From Magnetovibrio sp. PR-2 (GTDB lineage Bacteria; Pseudomonadota; Alphaproteobacteria; Rhodospirillales; Magnetovibrionaceae), in assembly GCF_036689815.1 (NCBI RefSeq), contig NZ_JBAHUR010000002.1, forward strand, positions 62,001 to 126,000: a stretch of 64,000 nucleotides of DNA. Direction: 5' to 3'. Within the stretch, counting starts at the first letter, position 1. The number at the start of each line of letters is the position of its first letter. Shown here piece after piece: positions 10,533 through 42,086 of this stretch. Both the position numbers and the translations under genes were made by a program. The notes under the pieces are model-generated. The model did no database searches and was not told the DNA's origin. It was given only the letters and a program-made list of their open reading frames with translations.

Positions 10533-10889
10533 TTAAGAGCCGCTGGACTCTTCAACCGCGACGTAGCCTTGCTCAATAGCGTAGCGTAAAGCGTCAAATG
10601 CGGCGCGGGATTCTTCATAAGCTTCGCGATGCATGCGCAGCTGTTTCACTTCACTTTCGTCCAAAGGCTCCCCTTTATCCGTGTCAGACGCGCGAAAAGC
10701 GGCTTCCAGATACCGCGCCCGGGTGCGCGCAATGGTGACGGCAAACGTCAAAACCGAATCACGTGTGACTACGGGGATGCGCTTGTCGATGATTTCGCGG
10801 TTGGCGATGCGAATGCCTTGTTCGATATCGTTCAAGAACCGTTTTTGGTTCATCAATTTGCGATAATCGTCTGTATGTTCGTCTTGCAT
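10533..10889 (-). CDS. Hypothetical 118-residue helical protein
   Basis: The protein begins MQDEHTDDYRKLMNQKRF and is charged, helical and without membrane segments or signal peptide. The middle TRDSVLTFAVTIARTRARYL and the late YEESRAAFDALRYAIEQGY look like two long helices. Gene-like composition and lack of overlap support a real gene. No family or function is recognised. Its own weak terminator follows. Confidence 0.6.
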   Translation of the reverse strand: MQDEHTDDYRKLMNQKRFLNDIEQGIRIANREIIDKRIPVVTRDSVLTFAVTIARTRARYLEAAFRASDTDKGEPLDESEVKQLRMHREAYEESRAAFDALRYAIEQGYVAVEESSGS

Positions 10890-11014: not shown

Positions 11015-11030
11015 TGTGACGATTATCACA
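11015..11030. promoter_or_regulatory. CRP/FNR-family site TGTGA-N6-TCACA
   Basis: A perfect match to the CRP half-site spacing, TGTGACGATTATCACA. Its centre (11022.5) lies 41-44 bases before the predicted start of the candidate small RNA, the position where CRP/FNR-type activators contact polymerase. No CRP gene lies in the window, so which regulator binds is unknown. Confidence 0.5.
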
Positions 11031-11064
11031 GCAATCAGAAGAGGAATCGTGCATATTTATATAT

Positions 11065-11148
11065 GTGAAGCGGATCACATGATCTGCTTCCATCCCTCAA
11101 GAGCACAAACTTAGGCCGACTATCTTTTGATAGTCGGCCTCCTTTTTT
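11065..11148 (+). ncRNA. Candidate small RNA, CRP/FNR-type controlled
   Basis: The stretch 10890-11202 has no gene but has the layout of a small RNA. A TGTGA-N6-TCACA site (11015-11030) and a TA-rich -10-like stretch (about 11054-11060) precede it. The predicted RNA of about 84 bases has a 10-bp hairpin at 11067-11090 (GAAGCGGATC/GATCTGCTTC, one G-U pair), a single-stranded linker CAUCCCUCAAGAGCACAAAC, and a perfect 12-bp terminator stem. The linker holds CCCUC, able to pair with GAGGG ribosome sites. An 11-codon frame (11079-11114) lacks a ribosome site and is not favoured. No known RNA family is recognised. Confidence 0.5.
11113..11147 (+). terminator. Strong rho-independent terminator
   Basis: A perfect 12-bp stem (AGGCCGACTATC / GATAGTCGGCCT) around a TTTT loop, then CC and six T residues on the plus strand. 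No plus-strand gene lies upstream, which is the main reason to suspect a small RNA here. Confidence 0.8.
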
Positions 11149-11202: not shown

Positions 11203-11279
11203 TGGTCGGAGCGATAGGATTCGAACCTACGACCCCTTCACCCCCAGTGAAGTGCGCTACCAGGCTGCGCTACGCTCCG
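11203..11279 (-). tRNA. tRNA-Pro, anticodon GGG
   Basis: A 77-base tRNA with CCA encoded. The 7-bp acceptor stem is CGGAGCG/CGCTCCG with discriminator A. The D-arm carries AGCCTGGTAGCGC, the anticodon arm is CTTCA-CTGGGGG-TGAAG giving anticodon GGG, and the T-arm has GGTTCGAATCC. It reads CCC and CCU proline codons. It lies after merR on the same strand, as often seen beside ihfA in alphaproteobacteria, and is followed by a strong terminator. Confidence 0.96.
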
Positions 11280-42070: not shown

Positions 42071-42086
42071 TGTGACTGCGGTCACA
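42071..42086. promoter_or_regulatory. CRP/FNR-family site TGTGA-N6-TCACA
   Basis: A perfect TGTGACTGCGGTCACA, extending to an 8-bp inverted repeat TCTGTGAC/GTCACAGA. It overlaps the stop codon of the methyltransferase gene and lies upstream of the 67-residue gene. No T-run follows, so it is not a terminator. Confidence 0.5.

Follow-up and report, generated by a model that had tools for sequence, protein, structure and literature searches.

A conserved small RNA gene of the Rhodospirillales that is apparently activated by a CRP-type regulator

The window, a stretch of 64,000 nucleotides from Magnetovibrio sp. PR-2, contains at positions 11015-11148 what sequence comparison indicates to be a real small RNA gene, apparently switched on by a CRP-type cyclic-nucleotide receptor. 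Its probable role is to tune protein production to shifts in the nutritional or energy state of the cell. With a probability of about three in four, we read it as a stand-alone, CRP-activated and trans-acting small RNA whose linker would pair with ribosome-binding sites, probably together with Hfq. The gene unit, the stems, the conservation of the linker and the position of the activator site were obtained by comparing sequences. The original prediction had placed the site, a -10-like stretch, a hairpin, a linker and a terminator in this order on the plus strand, and all of them are present. The features of the locus are as follows.

11015-11030, plus strand: CRP-type activator site TGTGACGATTATCACA, a perfect palindrome centred at -41.5 relative to the predicted start
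11052-11057, plus strand: -10 element CATATT, its position fixed across the family
11064-11148, plus strand: predicted small RNA of about 85 nt, its start placed from the -10 element and the site spacing
11064-11079, plus strand: second perfect TGTGA-N6-TCACA, overlapping RNA bases 1-16
11067-11090, plus strand: 5' hairpin of 10 bp (11067-11076 with 11081-11090), from the minimum free energy fold and compensatory changes
11093-11106, plus strand: invariant linker UCCCUCAAGAGCAC, the proposed seed, from the family alignment
11113-11148, plus strand: intrinsic terminator with a 12-bp stem (11113-11140) followed by CC and six T, from the fold
10533-10889, minus strand: divergent 118-aa ORF, a syntenic neighbour outside the RNA gene
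11206-11279, minus strand: convergent tRNA-Pro(GGG), a syntenic landmark near the small RNA in several families

Since the upstream ORF and the downstream tRNA-Pro gene are both on the minus strand, the terminator is not explained by any gene on the plus strand, as had been proposed. The 118-aa protein has no match in Pfam or NCBIfam; homologues occur in 36 of the 60 relatives and it is kept in many Rhodospirillales. A distant second paralogue is encoded in the same genome (C12:10103). A peptide from an 11-codon ATG frame inside the window RNA was rejected, as the frame is unconserved and broken by indels that change the linker length.

The segment 11064-11148 folds with -38.3 kcal/mol (z = -8.9 against shuffled sequences), and the fold contains the predicted 10-bp hairpin and the 12-bp terminator with its six T residues. 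A covariance model built on 22 copies matches the window locus at 11059-11146 with 81.9 bits. The original prediction had counted it among the refuting outcomes that no related genome would keep the stems, and had proposed a covariance analysis. The stems pass this test, both covarying strongly over 48 distinct copies, with compensatory changes at 15 of 17 pairs, namely 8 of the 10 pairs in the 5' hairpin and all 7 modelled pairs in the terminator, where 99.1% of the cells are paired. Standard pairs occupy 90.6% of all pair cells and the covariation score is 0.437, compared with 0.203 +/- 0.011 in shuffled alignments and at most 0.19 with slid partners; the 48-copy alignment was fitted to the covariance model and hence favours structure. 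In the first MAFFT alignment, which is free of the model, compensatory changes were found at 12 of 15 pairs. The terminator is complete in all copies. Covarying stems and a terminator of its own characterise the unit as a structured small RNA gene.

In a DNA search of 60 relatives, the unit occurred not only in the genus and the family but also in several other families. Of 317 Rhodospirillales genomes, 107 gave a match to the covariance model, spread over 53 of 115 genera; the copies are related to one another, so that these counts are not independent events. Magnetovibrio blakemorei MV-1 and other Magnetovibrio carry the gene, as do, among others, a Defluviicoccus and many metagenome assemblies of the Rhodospirillales. 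Forty weaker matches within the order were read. The core TTCCCTCAAGAGCA was intact or one mismatch away in 32 of them, and 23 of these 32 also carried, at the expected distance, a CRP-type site with no more than two mismatches, for which about 1% is expected by chance. Most of the weak matches are therefore true members, and it is in the 5' hairpin that they diverge rather than in the linker or the terminator. Outside the order, only two of about 380 (385) genomes drawn from the class gave a match, weak in both cases. The first doubtful match has no core; in the second (L306 in G494), the core-like sequence CTTCCCTCAAGAGCA lies directly before the terminator and right after an apparent glmS stop codon, and there is no CRP site. 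A plasmid collection searched with a distant copy gave no match. Five genomes carry tandem pairs about 140-175 bp apart (L012 in G003, L006 in G004, L013 in G008, L005 in G013 and L004 in G017), in which each copy has its own CRP site and its own terminator. Near the G003 locus, at L012:2818-2853, a sub-threshold match to the CRISPR repeat family DR20 was observed (35.4 of 42 bits).

The best conserved part of the family is the linker core UUCCCUCAAGAGCA. The CCCUC linker of the original prediction is present, but was drawn too narrowly; the linker is invariant or nearly so over 14 nt in the family alignment and is retained even in families with a diverged 5' hairpin. In structural ensembles the UCCCUC part is mostly unpaired (mean over copies 0.75-0.95) and the GAG part is about half unpaired. 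The linker is complementary to ribosome-binding sites of the GAGGGA type. Pairing with the Shine-Dalgarno sequence by such seeds is known from SisA-D of Caulobacter (PMC12559287), and the conserved seed of CyaR pairs with the Shine-Dalgarno region of ompX (PMC11795201). Because of these precedents and the unpaired CU-rich linker, a trans-acting pairing RNA is most likely. The transcript of about 85 nt would end at its own terminator and fold in the order 5' hairpin, exposed CU-rich linker and terminator hairpin. We infer that UUCCCUCAAGAGCA would then pair with purine-rich GAGGGA-like ribosome-binding sites, the flanking AAGAGCA adding specificity. Pairing may block translation or destabilise the target mRNAs, probably with the involvement of Hfq; the terminator U tract is present in the RNA.

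Targets were searched in six genomes of the genus with exact 8- and 9-mers (CTTGAGGGA, TTGAGGGA) before ATG. Linker complements before start codons outnumbered the reversed patterns by 16 to 1 and by 84 to 11, an enrichment that is expected of any word resembling a Shine-Dalgarno sequence. When the downstream genes were compared, no conserved target was found with these exact 8- and 9-mers in the six genomes. The start of an MlaB-like STAS gene, CTTGAGGGAA, has 9-11 bases complementary to the linker (L156, L159, L166); this gene lies between a PP2C-type phosphatase gene and mlaE in three Magnetovibrio genomes. It was rejected as a conserved target, the complement being lost in the window's genome, and fliL was rejected as it recurs in two genomes only.

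These results bear on an alternative that we regard as unlikely but worth weighing, in which the CRP-driven RNA is real but its linker binds a protein or a single RNA partner, as a sponge, and not many ribosome-binding sites. Families that differ in other parts, the 5' hairpin among them, share an unchanged linker of 14 nt, which is longer than Shine-Dalgarno pairing requires. A sponge would also agree with the missing conserved mRNA target and has a precedent in CrfA of Caulobacter, a small RNA sponge (PMC12559287). However, an unpaired CU-rich linker between a hairpin and a terminator is typical of pairing small RNAs such as the alpha-r8 family, and the target search covered only six genomes and exact words of 8 and 9 nt. 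Whatever its partner, a 14-nt linker that is better conserved than the 5' hairpin is a clean subject for studying the limits on seed evolution.

The reading as a CRP-activated RNA draws on the geometry of the promoter, which is kept across the family. The whole 3.75-Mb genome has only five perfect TGTGA-N6-TCACA palindromes, two of them in the small RNA locus. The site at 11015-11030 is perfect, as predicted, and is likewise perfect in 41 of the 48 distinct copies; all 48 have it with at most two mismatches. Its centre lies 41-48 nt (mode 44) upstream of the first stem base in the 48 copies. When the family's upstream regions were shuffled as a control, 2 of 24,000 sequences contained a perfect site. 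The predicted TA-rich stretch corresponds to the CATATT element, which is backed by its fixed position: in the window and overall in 34 of the 48 copies, the -10 element starts 29 bases past the first base to the right of the site centre. Its consensus resembles CATAAT; 90% of the copies have A at position 2 and 94% have T at position 6. The usual gap of 6 nt after the -10 element places the start at 11064 and puts the site centre at -41.5, which is the class II position. The activator position claimed for the site thus agrees with a distance to the predicted start that is kept in nearly all copies. A generic sigma-70 scan of the locus found no promoter because there is no -35 element, as is expected of a class II CRP promoter. 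The palindrome, centred near -41.5 from the predicted start, and the -10 element together have the make-up of such a promoter. A CRP-family dimer bound at -41.5 would recruit RNA polymerase to the -10 element without a recognisable -35. In family f4 the RNA core is kept and the CRP site is not recognisable, so that CRP control is usual but not universal. Taken together, the conserved site geometry and the covarying stems support the reading as a small RNA candidate.

The original prediction had left the site as CRP/FNR-type. The CRP part holds, since the sequence is TGTGA-N6-TCACA, and the FNR part (TTGAT-N4-ATCAA) does not. Control by FNR is unlikely because FNR half-sites are TTGAT, and a cyclic-nucleotide signal is therefore a better guess than oxygen. 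The second palindrome at 11064-11079 is kept by close relatives alone, and there only in part (TGTGGAGAGGTTCACA, TGTGAATTGGTTCACA); judged from its sequence, it may have arisen by chance or may serve as a CRP contact for repression or autoregulation. The same layout of TCACA, 21 nt and CATAAT as at the first site is seen at two more of the perfect sites in the genome, one before a flagellar basal-body rod-like gene (L153, G000:C3:232045) and one before a 111-aa ORF (L154, G000:C13:86917). To judge from this layout, both are probably members of the same regulon as the small RNA. At a further perfect palindrome in the window, TGTGACTGCGGTCACA at 42071-42086 (L152), no clear -10 element is seen at the class II distance.

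The site lies between the RNA and the divergent 118-aa gene, 125 bp upstream of the gene start, and might in principle serve that gene, the hairpins being mere terminators or a 3' end. This is very improbable, since the distance between site and RNA is kept in genomes that lack the gene or have it elsewhere (G043, G006, G052), each tandem copy of the small RNA has a site to itself, and the -10 element stands at a fixed spacing on the RNA side. On these comparisons, a promoter for the 118-aa gene appears largely refuted.

To look for the candidate activator, Crp/Fnr-type proteins of the window's genome were aligned with the E. coli CRP sequence. Four full-length proteins were clearly above the family threshold. 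In E. coli CRP the residues R180, E181 and R185 contact the DNA. Only one of the four, L060 (G000:C6:174372), keeps these three residues in the order RETVxR together with the GEL...RSA motif of the nucleotide pocket; its RETVAR corresponds to RETVGR in E. coli CRP, and the other three paralogues differ in this motif. From the alignment, L060 is most likely the activator of the small RNA gene in this genome. A candidate small RNA resembling alpha-r8 lies about 2.6 kb from L060 (L077, G000:C6:177179-177250) with a sub-threshold score of 36.9 bits. CgrA of Rhodospirillum centenum, from the same order, is a CRP homologue that binds cGMP and whose footprint is exactly TGTGA-N6-TCACA (PMC4681086). 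The activator may be a CRP homologue or a CgrA-like protein. A wider reading, which we consider rather improbable, would be an order-wide RNA with a CgrA-like activator and a linker read by one conserved partner, coupling cGMP or cAMP to post-transcriptional control.

At the gathering thresholds of Rfam 15, no family matches the small RNA and only sub-threshold matches occur. The closest candidate is the MmgR/alpha-r8 family (suhB, RF00519), of which the RNA might be a divergent member: the best relatives reach 24.9-33.6 bits across the whole model, and the layout of hairpin, CU-rich linker and terminator is alike. We consider this highly unlikely. All scores stay below the gathering threshold of 41 bits, with 18.6 in the window and 33.6 in the best relative, and RF00519 gives 25-37 bits in most genomes, presumably on terminator-like sequences. 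The alignment puts the linker inside the hairpin of the model and omits the alpha-r8 10-mer UUUCCUCCCU, in whose place the RNA has UUCCCUCAAGAGCA. Moreover, genuine alpha-r8 copies are found at separate loci in carriers of the small RNA (G026, G020). The least credible alternative, a cis-acting leader or attenuator of a downstream gene, is suggested by a hairpin followed by a terminator and is largely refuted because the downstream genes and their strands vary between families, the next features in the window being convergent and the terminator always complete.

We conclude that the RNA is a well-defined small RNA family, previously uncatalogued and absent from Rfam 15. A search of the open-access literature for the core sequence found only two plant microRNA papers, and the Azospirillum small RNA survey (PMC7685610) might contain an unrecognised member. 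Compared with known systems, CyaR (RyeE) of enterobacteria is also a CRP-controlled small RNA, as is proposed here (PMC11795201), but it belongs to another bacterial order and has no sequence or Rfam relationship; the CyaR model gave no match even at E values up to 10. The alpha-r8 RNAs (MmgR of S. meliloti, SisA-D) are alphaproteobacterial and likewise combine a hairpin, a CU-rich anti-Shine-Dalgarno linker and a terminator, but their core differs (PMC12559287). The small RNA described here, in contrast, has a fixed CRP site and coexists with true alpha-r8 RNAs. The CgrA regulon resembles it in the binding site and the bacterial order, whereas the regulon members named in the passages cited are protein genes, with no small RNA of this kind among them (PMC4681086). 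Its promoter names a likely activator. The small RNA family opens a way to study post-transcriptional control in Magnetovibrio and related bacteria, and it offers a test of whether the system of the cGMP-binding CRP homologue in this order works through small RNAs.
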